From an uncultured Elusimicrobia bacterium (GTDB lineage: Bacteria > Elusimicrobiota > Elusimicrobia > Elusimicrobiales > Elusimicrobiaceae), in the NCBI GenBank assembly GCA_947306425.1, contig CAMZGO010000001.1:62001-126000 (forward strand): a stretch of DNA of 64,000 nucleotides, read 5' to 3'. Made by a program: the position numbers and the translations under genes. Below, one piece after another: positions 7,564 to 14,466 of the stretch. The notes under the pieces were generated by a model that made no database searches, was not told the origin of the DNA, and worked only from the letters and a program-made list of their open reading frames with translations. How positions within the stretch are numbered: the stretch's first letter is position 1; every line of letters begins with the position of its first letter.

Positions 7564-8692
7564 TTAAAACGTTATTATAGTGTCATCAATTTCAGCAGCT
7601 TTTAAGGTACTTGCAGTAGTAATTTCTGGAGTTTGAAAAGATAAATTATTATTTGTGCTTAATTCTTTTTTACCGTCAATTAAAACCCAGCCGCTTTCTA
7701 CTGTAACACCGCAGTAATTTTGATTCGGAAATATTTGGGTAATTTGCGCTTTAGTGTTTCTCAAAAGCGGTTCTATTTCAGTTGGAATTTCGCCATAAGG
7801 CAAGTAAATATTTTTGATTTTCAAATTAAAATCTTTAAGCATATAAAAATAACTTCGCGATAGGGAATTTACAAATAAACAGTCAATTTCCTTAGTGCCG
7901 AGCGCAAGCAAAGCCTTCTTAGCAACACTGCCGCTAATGCTTGCACCAAGCATTTTAGTTTGATTATTTTCCCGCAAAATAACATTTAAATTGTATCGGC
8001 CTTTTAATACGGTAACTTCGCGCGGTTTAATAAAAATACCGCCGCTAAATACCAAAGCCGATAAGAAAAAAGCAACACAAAAAATTTTTAATTTCTTTTT
8101 AAACAATGGTAAATTAAGCAGGGAAAAAAGCAAAATATAATAAGCAATTATTGTTGTTGGTTTCAATGCCGGCATAGTTATATTTGAAAACGGCAAAGCG
8201 GCAAAAAAGTTTACTAAATACTCAAAACAAAAAAGCAAAAATTTAATAGTAAACAAAACCGGCCCAAAAATAAATTTAACAAAAGATGCAAGCCAAAGCA
8301 AAAACCCGCCGCCCATCAAAACCGCACTCAAAGGCACCAAGAGCAAATTGGATAAAACTGCGCTAAATGAAATTTTATAGAAGTAATTTGTAAACACAGG
8401 TAACAAAGCAAGCTGCGCACATAATGAAATAAAAAATAATTCCAAACACCATCTAGCTAACGGGTGAATTTTATAACTTAATTTAAAATTTGAAGTAAAC
8501 AAAATTATTGCGCAAGTTGCAAGAAAAGACATCTGAAATCCGGCTTCAAATAAACTTTGCGGATTTACAATTAAAATAAAGAAAGCGGCAAGTAATAATC
8601 CTTGCATTATTCCGCTTTTACGGCCCAAAATGAAACCCAAAATTCCGGCAACAGTCATCAAATATGCCCGCAGCAAAGGTGCATCCGCACCG
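7564..8692 (-). pseudogene. Truncated duplicate of comEC (C-terminal part)
   Basis: The region 7678-8692 appears identical by eye to 9458-10472 inside the intact comEC, at an offset of 1780 bp. An open frame of 370 residues starts at an internal Met (MLRAYLMTV, 8676) and lacks the N-terminal OB-like region and half of the competence membrane domain. The last ~25 codons differ from those of the full gene. At 8681-8692 the comEC sequence runs directly into the DUF2400 3' end. It is probably non-functional; whether a shortened membrane protein is made is unknown. Confidence 0.85.
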
Positions 8693-8737: not shown

Positions 8738-9220
8738 TTAATATCTATAAGTATTTTCTCCTATAGTTGCATTTTTCTTTCCCGTTTCCAATTTACATAA
8801 ACGATGAGATTTGTCATTAGAATCATTGCTTAATGTAGTGCATCTGCGGTCATTGATAGAGTTAAGTTTAATGTCATAAGACATAGTTACCCCAAAAATT
8901 TTTCTTTTACAATATATAAAAGCGGTTGAAATCTGGCACCTAGACCCGTCTTTTATCTCCATCTTATCATGCTGTACTAAATCACCTTGTAAGTCAATAT
9001 CTAGTCCCTCAAAAGAACCCCAAAACCTATCACTGACCATGTATAACCTATCCACGGCACTTTTGATTGTATGGGCATTTTCTTTTAAAGTCGCAAATTT
9101 TGCTTTTCCCGCTACCATTTGATATTGCGGCAAAGAAATAGCGGCAAGTATGCCGATAATTAAAACAACTACCAATAATTCAATTAAAGTAAAGCCCTTA
9201 ACGTTTTTTATTTTCTTCAT
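8738..9220 (-). CDS. Type IV pilin-like protein (PilE/pseudopilin family)
   Basis: A 160-residue prepilin: leader MKKIKNVKG, cleavage before FTLIELL, hydrophobic core VVVLIIGILAAISLPQYQ, then a variable domain with four Cys. RBS AGGAGG precedes the ATG. Its stop lies 1 bp from the stop of DUF2400 tail copy 2 on the opposite strand. It is the second pilin of the duplicated unit, yet its mature domain has little in common with the 6899-7441 pilin. Expression should depend on the T17-spaced promoter at 9269-9301. Confidence 0.9.
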   Translation of the reverse strand: MKKIKNVKGFTLIELLVVVLIIGILAAISLPQYQMVAGKAKFATLKENAHTIKSAVDRLYMVSDRFWGSFEGLDIDLQGDLVQHDKMEIKDGSRCQISTAFIYCKRKIFGVTMSYDIKLNSINDRRCTTLSNDSNDKSHRLCKLETGKKNATIGENTYRY

Positions 9221-9343: not shown

Positions 9344-11188
9344 TTAGAAATTTATAATATTACCGTCGGTTTTAATTGTTTTTAAATTGGCGGAAGAAGA
9401 AACTTTGTCGGCTTTAAAAGATAAATTATTATTCACTCTCGGCTCTTTTTTACCGCTAATTAAAACCCAGCCGCTTTCTACTGTAACACCGCAGTAATTT
9501 TGATTCGGAAATATTTGGGTAATTTGCGCTTTAGTGTTTCTCAAAAGCGGTTCTATTTCAGTTGGAATTTCGCCATAAGGCAAGTAAATATTTTTGATTT
9601 TCAAATTAAAATCTTTAAGCATATAAAAATAACTTCGCGATAGGGAATTTACAAATAAACAGTCAATTTCCTTAGTGCCGAGCGCAAGCAAAGCCTTCTT
9701 AGCAACACTGCCGCTAATGCTTGCACCAAGCATTTTAGTTTGATTATTTTCCCGCAAAATAACATTTAAATTGTATCGGCCTTTTAATACGGTAACTTCG
9801 CGCGGTTTAATAAAAATACCGCCGCTAAATACCAAAGCCGATAAGAAAAAAGCAACACAAAAAATTTTTAATTTCTTTTTAAACAATGGTAAATTAAGCA
9901 GGGAAAAAAGCAAAATATAATAAGCAATTATTGTTGTTGGTTTCAATGCCGGCATAGTTATATTTGAAAACGGCAAAGCGGCAAAAAAGTTTACTAAATA
10001 CTCAAAACAAAAAAGCAAAAATTTAATAGTAAACAAAACCGGCCCAAAAATAAATTTAACAAAAGATGCAAGCCAAAGCAAAAACCCGCCGCCCATCAAA
10101 ACCGCACTCAAAGGCACCAAGAGCAAATTGGATAAAACTGCGCTAAATGAAATTTTATAGAAGTAATTTGTAAACACAGGTAACAAAGCAAGCTGCGCAC
10201 ATAATGAAATAAAAAATAATTCCAAACACCATCTAGCTAACGGGTGAATTTTATAACTTAATTTAAAATTTGAAGTAAACAAAATTATTGCGCAAGTTGC
10301 AAGAAAAGACATCTGAAATCCGGCTTCAAATAAACTTTGCGGATTTACAATTAAAATAAAGAAAGCGGCAAGTAATAATCCTTGCATTATTCCGCTTTTA
10401 CGGCCCAAAATGAAACCCAAAATTCCGGCAACAGTCATCAAATATGCCCGCAGCAAAGGTGCATCCGCACCGGCAATTAAAGTATAAAGTAAAGCAGCGG
10501 TTAAAGCAATAAATGCAGTCCTTTTACGCCCGCCGAAAAATAAAGAACATAAAAAATAAACAATCAAAGTAACAAAACCGACATTCCCTCCGGATGCAAC
10601 AAGCAAGTGCATGGCACCGCTGTCTTGAAAAGCGGTGTATAAAGTATCAGGTATATCGCCCTTTTCACCAAGTGTAATACCGCTTAAAATAGCAGCGGAA
10701 CTAGAAGGTAAATTCTCCCGAAACACATTTAAAATGCTTGTACGGATTTGGGCAAGATAAAACCAAAGCCCTTTAGAATTTTCAACTTTTTCAATTTTAA
10801 CTACATTACCTTGCGTGAAAATATGTTTACGCGCAAGATATTTGCCCCATTCAAAAGAACCGTAATTTTCGCTGTTACCTGGAATAAAGAAATCGCCTTC
10901 AAAAGCAATAATTTGCCCGCGTTGCAATTCTACACAATCTTGGCAGGACAAATACACCTTACCCTTTTGTTCCTTACCGTTTAAAGTTAGAATATCAGCG
11001 TTAAAAAACTGCTTATTTGACTTTAAGCGCGGGTAAGAATTTATATAGGCGCTGACTTTAGCCCTTATCGGGAGTTTATAAAAAATATCATCTTGCTTTG
11101 GTTTTGGAACTTTCAAAAACAAGGAAAGAAAAAGAGTATAAAGTACAAATATCAGAAAAAAGGGCCTTTTGTAAAAAGACGGGTGCAT
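9344..11188 (-). CDS. comEC: ComEC/Rec2-family DNA-uptake channel protein
   Basis: Inner-membrane protein that passes transforming single-stranded DNA into the cytoplasm. It has 614 residues. Residues ~10-30 are a membrane segment, ~40-130 an OB-like exported region (DUF4131-type), and ~190-470 the polytopic competence domain (SGITLGEKGDIP, HLLVASGGNVGF, RAYLMTVAGILGFI). The C-terminal ~130 residues occupy the place of the metallo-beta-lactamase-like domain, but I see no HxHxDH ligand set, so that domain is degenerate or lost. The start overlaps the recR stop by 1 bp (TAATG). About 1 kb of this gene is duplicated at 7564-8692. Confidence 0.88.
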   Translation of the reverse strand: MHPSFYKRPFFLIFVLYTLFLSLFLKVPKPKQDDIFYKLPIRAKVSAYINSYPRLKSNKQFFNADILTLNGKEQKGKVYLSCQDCVELQRGQIIAFEGDFFIPGNSENYGSFEWGKYLARKHIFTQGNVVKIEKVENSKGLWFYLAQIRTSILNVFRENLPSSSAAILSGITLGEKGDIPDTLYTAFQDSGAMHLLVASGGNVGFVTLIVYFLCSLFFGGRKRTAFIALTAALLYTLIAGADAPLLRAYLMTVAGILGFILGRKSGIMQGLLLAAFFILIVNPQSLFEAGFQMSFLATCAIILFTSNFKLSYKIHPLARWCLELFFISLCAQLALLPVFTNYFYKISFSAVLSNLLLVPLSAVLMGGGFLLWLASFVKFIFGPVLFTIKFLLFCFEYLVNFFAALPFSNITMPALKPTTIIAYYILLFSLLNLPLFKKKLKIFCVAFFLSALVFSGGIFIKPREVTVLKGRYNLNVILRENNQTKMLGASISGSVAKKALLALGTKEIDCLFVNSLSRSYFYMLKDFNLKIKNIYLPYGEIPTEIEPLLRNTKAQITQIFPNQNYCGVTVESGWVLISGKKEPRVNNNLSFKADKVSSSANLKTIKTDGNIINF

Positions 11189-13666: not shown

Positions 13667-14167
13667 TTACAAATGCCCTTGTTCATTTATTTTATCACAA
13701 TGCTTTTTTTCAATACTAGATATGTTTTCATTAGGAGAACAATGCAACATATTTTCTCTGTCTAAATATAAAGAATAACTATATTTGGGTAATTTATTGG
13801 CAAGAGCTTTATATCCAGAACTTTGTGAGTTACTCAGTTTCCCATCCGGAGAATATAGAAAAAATTTTCCCTTTACTCTTTTTGAATACCAACCGCTCTC
13901 AATAATTTCTCCAAAAATTTCCACATCTAATTTATCCATTTCGTCAACGTTAGCATACCTACCGTTAATTAAATAAAAAGAATCTTGGGCTTTAGCAATA
14001 GCATTCAAATTCACTACAGCTTCTGTTATACGTATTTTTTCCACCGCTAAACGATACTGCGGCAGGGCAATAGCGGCCAAGATACCTATAATAAGCACCA
14101 CAACTAAAAGTTCTAACAGGGTAAAACCTTTAGTGAATCTTTTTGTTTGCATTCTTTTGTCTTTCAT
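13667..14167 (-). CDS. Type IV pilin-like protein (PilE/pseudopilin family)
   Basis: A 166-residue prepilin. The ATG at 14167 is chosen because AAGGAGAAATT precedes it; the frame remains open upstream to 14284, but that part lies inside a structured RNA region. The leader MKDKRMQTKRFTKG is longer than in the sister proteins, then FTLLELL and VVVLIIGILAAIALPQYRLA. The variable domain has only two Cys, towards the C-terminus (LHCSPN, KKHCDK). No TTGACA/poly-T promoter is present; instead the gene follows the candidate structured RNA at 14205-14405. It is the only pilin in the window that is not tail-to-tail with another gene. Confidence 0.88.
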   Translation of the reverse strand: MKDKRMQTKRFTKGFTLLELLVVVLIIGILAAIALPQYRLAVEKIRITEAVVNLNAIAKAQDSFYLINGRYANVDEMDKLDVEIFGEIIESGWYSKRVKGKFFLYSPDGKLSNSQSSGYKALANKLPKYSYSLYLDRENMLHCSPNENISSIEKKHCDKINEQGHL

Positions 14168-14204
14168 AATTTCTCCTTTTCCGTTAATGGTAGGCGGGGC
14201 ATAA

Positions 14205-14405
14205 TTAAAAAACACAAACAAAAAGGCCGTCTTTTGTGGGACTACAATCGCACAAAAAACAGCCGCCCGCCCGTGTGTAAACACGGGCAGATGTCATAAA
14301 TAGTTTATGGCATATAACGACTGCTTTTGGTTTGTAGTCCTTTCCTCTCGGAAACGAGGCCTTACGGCCGCCAAAAACAGAAATTCTTACCGCCCTAAAG
14401 CGGCT
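14205..14405 (-). ncRNA. Candidate structured RNA upstream of a pilin gene
   Basis: On the minus strand a TATAAT (14412-14417) precedes about 200 nt dense in base-paired arms. A 9-bp stem GGACTACAA/TTGTAGTCC (plus coordinates 14331-14339 with 14238-14246) encloses an 8-bp hairpin with a four-base loop (14268-14287). A GGCC-GTAA-GGCC hairpin (14357-14368) can alternatively give its GGCCGT arm to ACGGCC at 14224-14229, immediately before a T-rich tract. It could be a free-standing small RNA (6S-like size and rod shape) or a leader with a terminator switch for the pilin at 14167. No known family was recognised. Confidence 0.45.
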
Positions 14406-14466
14406 TAAATTCATTATATCAAAAAAACACACTTATAAAAAGTTATAATAATAAAAAGGAGATTTT

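Follow-up and report, generated by a model that had tools for sequence, protein, structure and literature searches.

A family of putative transcription-attenuating leader RNAs with a copy-specific helix upstream of pilin and other genes in gut-associated Elusimicrobiota

The pilin leader that we describe here, from the genome of an uncultured Elusimicrobia bacterium, belongs to a multicopy RNA family whose members very probably act in cis as transcription attenuators. As comparison of the copies indicates, they lie in the leader 5' of a gene on the same strand, end in a predicted intrinsic terminator and can form a putative antiterminator that covaries and is mutually exclusive with it. The family would constitute a novel class of regulatory RNA in a phylum for which, to our knowledge, there is almost no RNA biology; as many as 48 or so copies occupy a 1.4-Mb genome, where they precede roughly one in four of some 108 pilin-like genes as well as nuclease, glycosyltransferase and restriction genes. 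Its copy-specific pairing and its palindromes pose two questions, namely how dozens of near-identical regulatory RNAs avoid cross-talk in one cell and whether a bacterial leader can function as an RNA dimer.

The window, that is, the whole stretch of 64,000 nucleotides that was analysed, carries the leader RNA on the minus strand from about 14405 to 14219, with the pilin ATG at 14167 (Table 1). The elements that the initial annotation had described on this strand (a TATAAT, a 9-bp long-range stem, an 8-bp hairpin, GGCC-GTAA-GGCC, an ACGGCC by a T-rich tract and the pilin ATG) can all be read in the sequence, and the 9-bp stem is Q:Q', the copy-specific pairing that is the hallmark of the family. 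The 206-nt minus strand folds at -82.1 kcal/mol as compared with -54 +/- 4 for dinucleotide shuffles (z = -6.96), none of the 200 shuffles being as stable. In the covariance model the window copy is a divergent family member, with 69.7 bits and rank 44 of 48 in its own genome. Boxes resembling TATAAT or TATACT are also found 5' of many other copies, and in many of them a variable hairpin occupies the position of the 5' hairpin.

Table 1. Features of the leader locus and its pilin gene, in coordinates of the window (A1, family alignment of 83 copies)
Feature	Position	Strand	Sequence or remark	Basis
-10 box of leader promoter	14413..14418	-	TATAAT	read from sequence
5' hairpin, likely transcript start	14389..14404	-	GCCGC-TTTAGG-GCGGT	folding, sequence
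P1, 5' strand	14371..14380	-	CUGUUUUUGG	near-invariant in A1
P2 hairpin	14358..14369	-	GGCC-GUAA-GGCC (GGCCGTAAGGCC); sequence varies among copies	folding, sequence
P3 hairpin	14341..14354	-	UUUCC-GAGA-GGAAA	folding, sequence
Q segment	14332..14340	-	GGACUACAA (= GGACTACAA); copy-specific, partner Q'	Q:Q' helix in parsed copies
P1, 3' strand	14321..14330	-	CCAAAAGCAG; final bases shared with antiterminator strand	alignment, covariation
Antiterminator, 5' strand	14317..14325	-	AGCAGUCGU	pairs with terminator 5' strand in 99.3% of A1 cells
P4 hairpin	14291..14313	-	AUGCCAUAAA-CUA-UUUAUGACAU; short variant, no palindromic loop	folding; covaries at each pair in family
P5 hairpin	14267..14289	-	TGCCCGTGTTTACACACGGGCGG; 8-bp hairpin of initial annotation	folding, alignment, sequence
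Terminator, 5' strand	14251..14266	-	GCGGCUGUUUUUUGUG; alternative partner is antiterminator strand	folding, A1 pairing, constrained energies
Q'	14239..14247	-	UUGUAGUCC (= TTGTAGTCC); inside terminator loop	family pairing, sequence
Terminator, 3' strand	14225..14238	-	CACAAAAGACGGCC	folding, alignment, sequence
U-tract of intrinsic terminator	14219..14225	-		sequence; kept across family
Pilin Shine-Dalgarno	14173..14180	-	AAAAGGAG	sequence
Putative controlled gene	13667..14167	-	type IV pilin, 166 aa	ORF; N_methyl domain match G000:C1:76063-76134

About 48 copies are present in the same genome, and the family is not specific to the window pilin. By DNA search we recovered a homologue in a congener as well as a diverged paralogue in this genome, which likewise lies ahead of a pilin. 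With a pattern of the shared core, CCAAAANCAGTCGTT, there were 9 matches in the own genome and 20 in one relative, and the reversed control gave few per genome. The longer pattern TGTTTTTGGN{42,72}CCAAAANCAGTCGT matched 107 stretches in GTDB genomes and none in viral contigs; among the 80 matches listed, nearly all came from Elusimicrobia, Elusimicrobiales or Endomicrobia of rumen or gut and a few from unnamed bacteria, while the two from Saccharibacteria and Enterococcus look like chance. Searched with R1, a covariance model built from 83 copies, the own genome (1.44 Mb) yields 48 matches, of which 47 have E <= 2.4e-15 and one, a short copy, has 8e-9. In other genomes, where at most 20 or 12 candidates were scored and the counts are lower bounds, R1 copies are present in at least 66 of 120 relatives and in at least 61 of 199 genomes sampled across the phylum; these 61 fall almost entirely within the families f1 and f10. 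The family occurs in gut-associated Elusimicrobiota. No match was obtained in the viral contig, phage and plasmid collections, and we discarded a phage-, plasmid- or virus-borne origin on account of this absence. A divergent subtype occurs in MAGs of Ruminimicrobiellum and Endomicrobia (loci L093, L097, L099, L108, L117, L138, L180, L192 and L193), with another P4 loop (AAGCUAUG) and a shorter terminator that has Q' directly within it.

From 5' to 3', the consensus begins with the promoter and continues with the P1 5' strand CUGUUUUUGG, P2, P3, Q (about 10 nt), CCAAAANCAGUCGU, P4, P5 and ACGGCUGUU, followed by Q' in the terminator loop, AACAGCCG-UUUUU, a leader of about 40 nt and the AUG; in many copies there is also an AGGAG and a small hairpin between promoter and P1. 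The segment CCAAAANCAGUCGU comprises the P1 3' strand plus UCGU. Compensatory changes among relatives, which the initial annotation had named as a check, are abundant in the alignment of 83 copies: both sides have changed in 753 cells, as compared with 246 in shuffles, and 90.8% of cells are paired, a share that falls to 75% on shuffling and below 50% with the partner slid. The counts come from related sequences, so that the p-values given below overstate independence. All pairs of P4, P5 and Q:Q' show changes on both sides, and the terminator helix, which precedes the U-tract, is paired in 97.2% of the cells. As P1 is almost invariant, covariation lends little support to its pairs, a few probably related copies excepted.

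The initial proposal of a structured RNA ahead of the pilin, able to adopt mutually exclusive folds of which one is a terminator, is supported by covariation. The switch that had been suggested, GGCCGT pairing with ACGGCC, is nevertheless not conserved outside the window copy and is absent as a feature of the family, GGCC-GTAA-GGCC being simply the P2 of this copy; the conserved competition is among P1, the antiterminator and the terminator. The antiterminator helix, formed by the CCAAAANCAGUCGU strand and the terminator 5' strand, is paired in 99.3% of A1 cells, and it keeps a G.U in 82 of 83 copies where the terminator has a G-C pair in 81 of 83, so that the terminator is the stronger competitor. 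A C to U change in the shared strand accompanies a G to A change in the terminator 5' strand in 6/8 against 2/119 (p = 1.5e-7, uncorrected for relatedness), and three copies have in addition a G to A change in P1; this triad covariation supports both predicted pairings of CCAAAANCAGUCGU, with P1 upstream and with the terminator 5' strand. Classical transcription attenuators and T-box leaders resemble this family in that their terminator and antiterminator have one strand in common; unlike them, it matches no T-box or leader-peptide family of Rfam and does not encode a conserved leader peptide, although some copies have a start-stop.

Constrained folding favoured the antiterminator in the nascent RNA (by a mean of 9.4 kcal/mol, in 99% of 100 copies) and the P1/terminator form in the complete RNA (by a mean of 5.2 kcal/mol, in 92% of copies), with the window copy giving -60.7 for the antiterminator versus -51.8 for the P1/terminator form when nascent and -65.4 versus -71.0 when complete; such energies ignore pseudoknots, kinetics and proteins, and the longer antiterminator helix favours ON by construction. 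This order is the one expected of a transcriptional attenuator. What comparison of the copies shows is the set of covarying helices, the two folds competing for one strand, the genes that follow and the leader complements described below; from these we infer the direction and order of switching. Transcription would start at the TATAAT promoter and the 5' domain, with P1 around P2 and P3, would fold first, followed by P4 and P5. The emerging terminator 5' strand and Q' may then invade P1 by means of toeholds flanking its 3' strand, Q on one side and UCGU on the other, giving a long antiterminator made of Q:Q', CCAAA:UUUGG (in most copies) and AACAGUCGU:ACGGCUGUU, such that the polymerase would enter the pilin gene. 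If P1 holds, the terminator hairpin would form instead and the RNA would end about 40 nt 5' of the gene; a presumed factor, whether ligand, protein or RNA partner, would stabilise P1 and turn the gene off. The terminated leader could additionally persist as an RNA of about 190-210 nt. Processive antitermination of the LoaP/RfaH type was also considered and rejected, as there is no specialised NusG paralogue and a single NusG N-terminal domain in G000.

The mRNA leader beyond the terminator also bears on the two folds. The complement of the P1 5' strand occurs in 20 of 87 leaders as compared with 2.4 in shuffles, and that of the terminator 3' strand in 17 of 87 as compared with 2.1 shuffled and 3.4 swapped; three leaders have both and 53 have no clear capture element. 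Complements of the P1 3' strand, the antiterminator strand and Q' were found in none of the 87 leaders. The complemented strands are exactly those freed when the antiterminator forms, and we take the complements as likely locks of the read-through state: in read-through RNA the freed P1 5' strand and terminator 3' strand would often be captured by them beside the ribosome-binding site, keeping the switch ON. With the leader included, the folding energies shift in favour of ON, and the shift is greater in copies with capture elements (p = 0.004). In leaders L105, L115, L131, L053, L002, L137, L067 and L164, perfect or near-perfect hairpins of 8-10 bp bury the Shine-Dalgarno (e.g., GTTTCCTCC...GGAGGAAAC), which suggests a second, translational layer in some copies.

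What signal would set an attenuator of this kind is a matter over which three explanations compete, a metabolite riboswitch, homotypic RNA and ribosome sensing, all of them compatible with attenuation. The second draws on the copy-specific elements. In the 114 parsed copies, Q:Q' forms a helix of 7-14 bp in every one (mean 10.2 bp, versus 5.8 bp for copies paired at random), although a looser automatic parsing that took in more divergent own-genome copies did not recover it in all; in A1, 10 of 10 aligned columns change on both sides. Between copies that are 75-85% identical elsewhere, Q is 49% and Q' 47% identical, as against 85% for P2, 73-77% for the terminator arms and 74% for P4, with 10-bp blocks replaced whole on both sides; copies otherwise 80-89% identical also differ in Q:Q'. 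Q:Q' evolves faster than the RNA around it. Two further roles for Q found no support. As regards selection for orthogonal codes, the cognate partner ranks strictly first in 27 of the 38 own-genome copies that were parsed, some parses having failed, and the highest non-cognate scores resemble chance maxima; as regards guidance to the neighbouring gene, neither Q nor its complement is in excess within 1.5 kb.

Of the distinct P4 apical loops that are 8-12 nt long, which number 25 and are not fully independent of one another, 20 contain a 6-nt palindrome versus 2.4 in shuffles, whereas none of the 61 P5 loops taken as a control has one. The cores are of at least six different types, among them UAAUUA, UCAUGA, UUAUAA, UUGCAA, UCUAGA, CUCGAG and CACGUG. 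A self-complementary apical loop kept by compensatory change is a property of the family but not of the window copy, which like some others has a non-palindromic P4 loop. The palindromes suggest kissing dimers, loop to loop, of identical RNAs, and one may picture terminated leaders acting on nascent ones of the same gene through such dimers, possibly with Q:Q' swapped; we consider this homotypic control unlikely, and it is similarly improbable that Q:Q' and the palindromes serve as self-recognition codes. In their favour are the palindromes themselves, absent from P5, and the fact that Q:Q' is complementary in 114/114 copies yet divergent among 80-89%-identical ones; however, intramolecular pairing accounts for Q:Q' equally well, and the palindromic loop is missing in some copies. 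More elaborate, and quite unlikely, is that each cell holds about 48 barcoded paralogous leaders, most with a private Q:Q' code and many with a kissing loop, in which a terminated leader would recognise leaders still being made from the same gene or class; if true, it would be an RNA-only, gene-specific feedback across a large pilin repertoire. Natural RNA oligomers are rarely observed (PMC7357161), and OLE, ROOL and GOLLD are large RNAs that form homo-oligomers (PMC12286853). Self-association, here suggested by self-complementary loops alone, would be shared with them, but those RNAs are large and free and the leaders are short, cis-acting and equipped with a terminator.

The metabolite riboswitch, strictly understood, would have its aptamer in the P1-P2-P3 junction (or in P4-P5) and sense a small molecule such as a nucleotide second messenger by which pili are tuned. 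Riboswitches for c-di-GMP (classes I and II) and cGAMP (GEMM) act as terminator/antiterminator devices on surface genes in Geobacter and Clostridioides (PMC6366702, PMC8835794). The leaders resemble them in being multicopy and structured, in combining an intrinsic terminator with a competing fold, which provides the expression platform, and in lying 5' of pilin and other surface genes in numbers that recall their regulons, and the own genome encodes two GGDEF proteins. They differ in their hypervariable complementary segment, in their palindromic loops and, in the searches made, in being confined to Elusimicrobiota; furthermore, no unpaired conserved pocket marking an aptamer was recognised in the family, P2, P3 and J3/1 are highly variable, and Q, the 10 nt 5' of the P1 3' strand, is hypervariable, as one would not expect of a ligand pocket. 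The initial annotation had matched no known riboswitch class, and in agreement with it no Rfam family reached its gathering score in the whole window. A permissive search at the locus returned only P26, preQ1-II and symR, all far below the cut-off, and for eight typical copies the sole matches above threshold were tRNA and 5S, both outside the RNA. No riboswitch class of Rfam 15, including c-di-GMP-I/II, preQ1 and T-box, had a curated-score match in the window or in these eight copies. We consider a riboswitch possible but doubtful. No description of the leaders was found in the open-access literature searched; with neither an Rfam family nor a paper, we file them as an apparently undescribed class that works like known attenuators.

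The region 5' of P1 brings in the ribosome. GGAG occurs in the 60 nt 5' of P1 in 60 of 140 copies versus 14.6 in shuffles, and in 17 of the 48 own-genome copies (L039, L052, L054, L055 and others) a Shine-Dalgarno and, after it, a mini-ORF consisting of a start and a stop (AGGAG-N-AUG-UAA/UAG) lie immediately 5' of the RNA's 5' hairpin. Both features would suit an attenuator in which a ribosome at the 5' hairpin sets the fold, but more than half of the copies, including that of the window, do not have such a Shine-Dalgarno, and the mini-ORF is about 30-40 nt away from P1; we deem it very unlikely.

A same-strand gene follows 107 of the 114 parsed copies, mostly 25-110 nt past the terminator, with a median distance of about 43 nt for the pilins. 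Type IV pilins make up 57 of the genes after these copies, as counted by a strict pattern, AFTL-type N termini and one Pfam-identified case; the others include glycosyltransferases, outer-membrane barrels, SNase nucleases, EcoRI-type and N6/N4 DNA methylases, and TPR proteins. By our count, the 48 own-genome copies precede 25 pilins, 11 small TPR proteins and 4 SNase-like proteins. As this 1.44-Mb genome has 108 matches to the pilin N-methylation domain, a very large repertoire, about a quarter of its pilins bear the leader. A free small RNA, 6S-like or guiding to targets, with the adjoining gene incidental, had also been contemplated; the strong terminator, the own promoter and the high copy number would agree with it, as would, for 6S RNA, the length of about 200 nt. 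We find it highly improbable, and unlikely as the sole function, because nearly every copy has a same-strand gene start at a tight distance of about 40 nt, around half of them pilins. Moreover, the post-terminator leader co-evolves with strands of the RNA, Q matches in the flanks are not in excess, the 6S model of Rfam matched neither the window nor the eight typical copies, and, unlike 6S RNA, the leaders do not fold into one long helix interrupted by a central bubble and stand in about 48 copies each before a gene.

Some observations concern the pilin genes themselves. Pilins are located in the window at 1543, 6899, 8738, 14167 and 18397. The one at 8738-9220 sits between a 370-aa ORF (7564-8676, minus strand) and a 614-aa ComEC-like ORF (9344-11188, minus strand) whose C-terminal part the former repeats almost letter for letter; the pair looks like a partial duplication of an apparent DNA-uptake gene. 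At L052:2230-2320 (G000:C1:206540-206640), the N terminus of the pilin that follows this leader copy is seemingly out of frame beside A runs, as the ATG frame soon stops and GFTLMELLVV is read in a different one, so that a pseudogene or a phase-variable start is possible.
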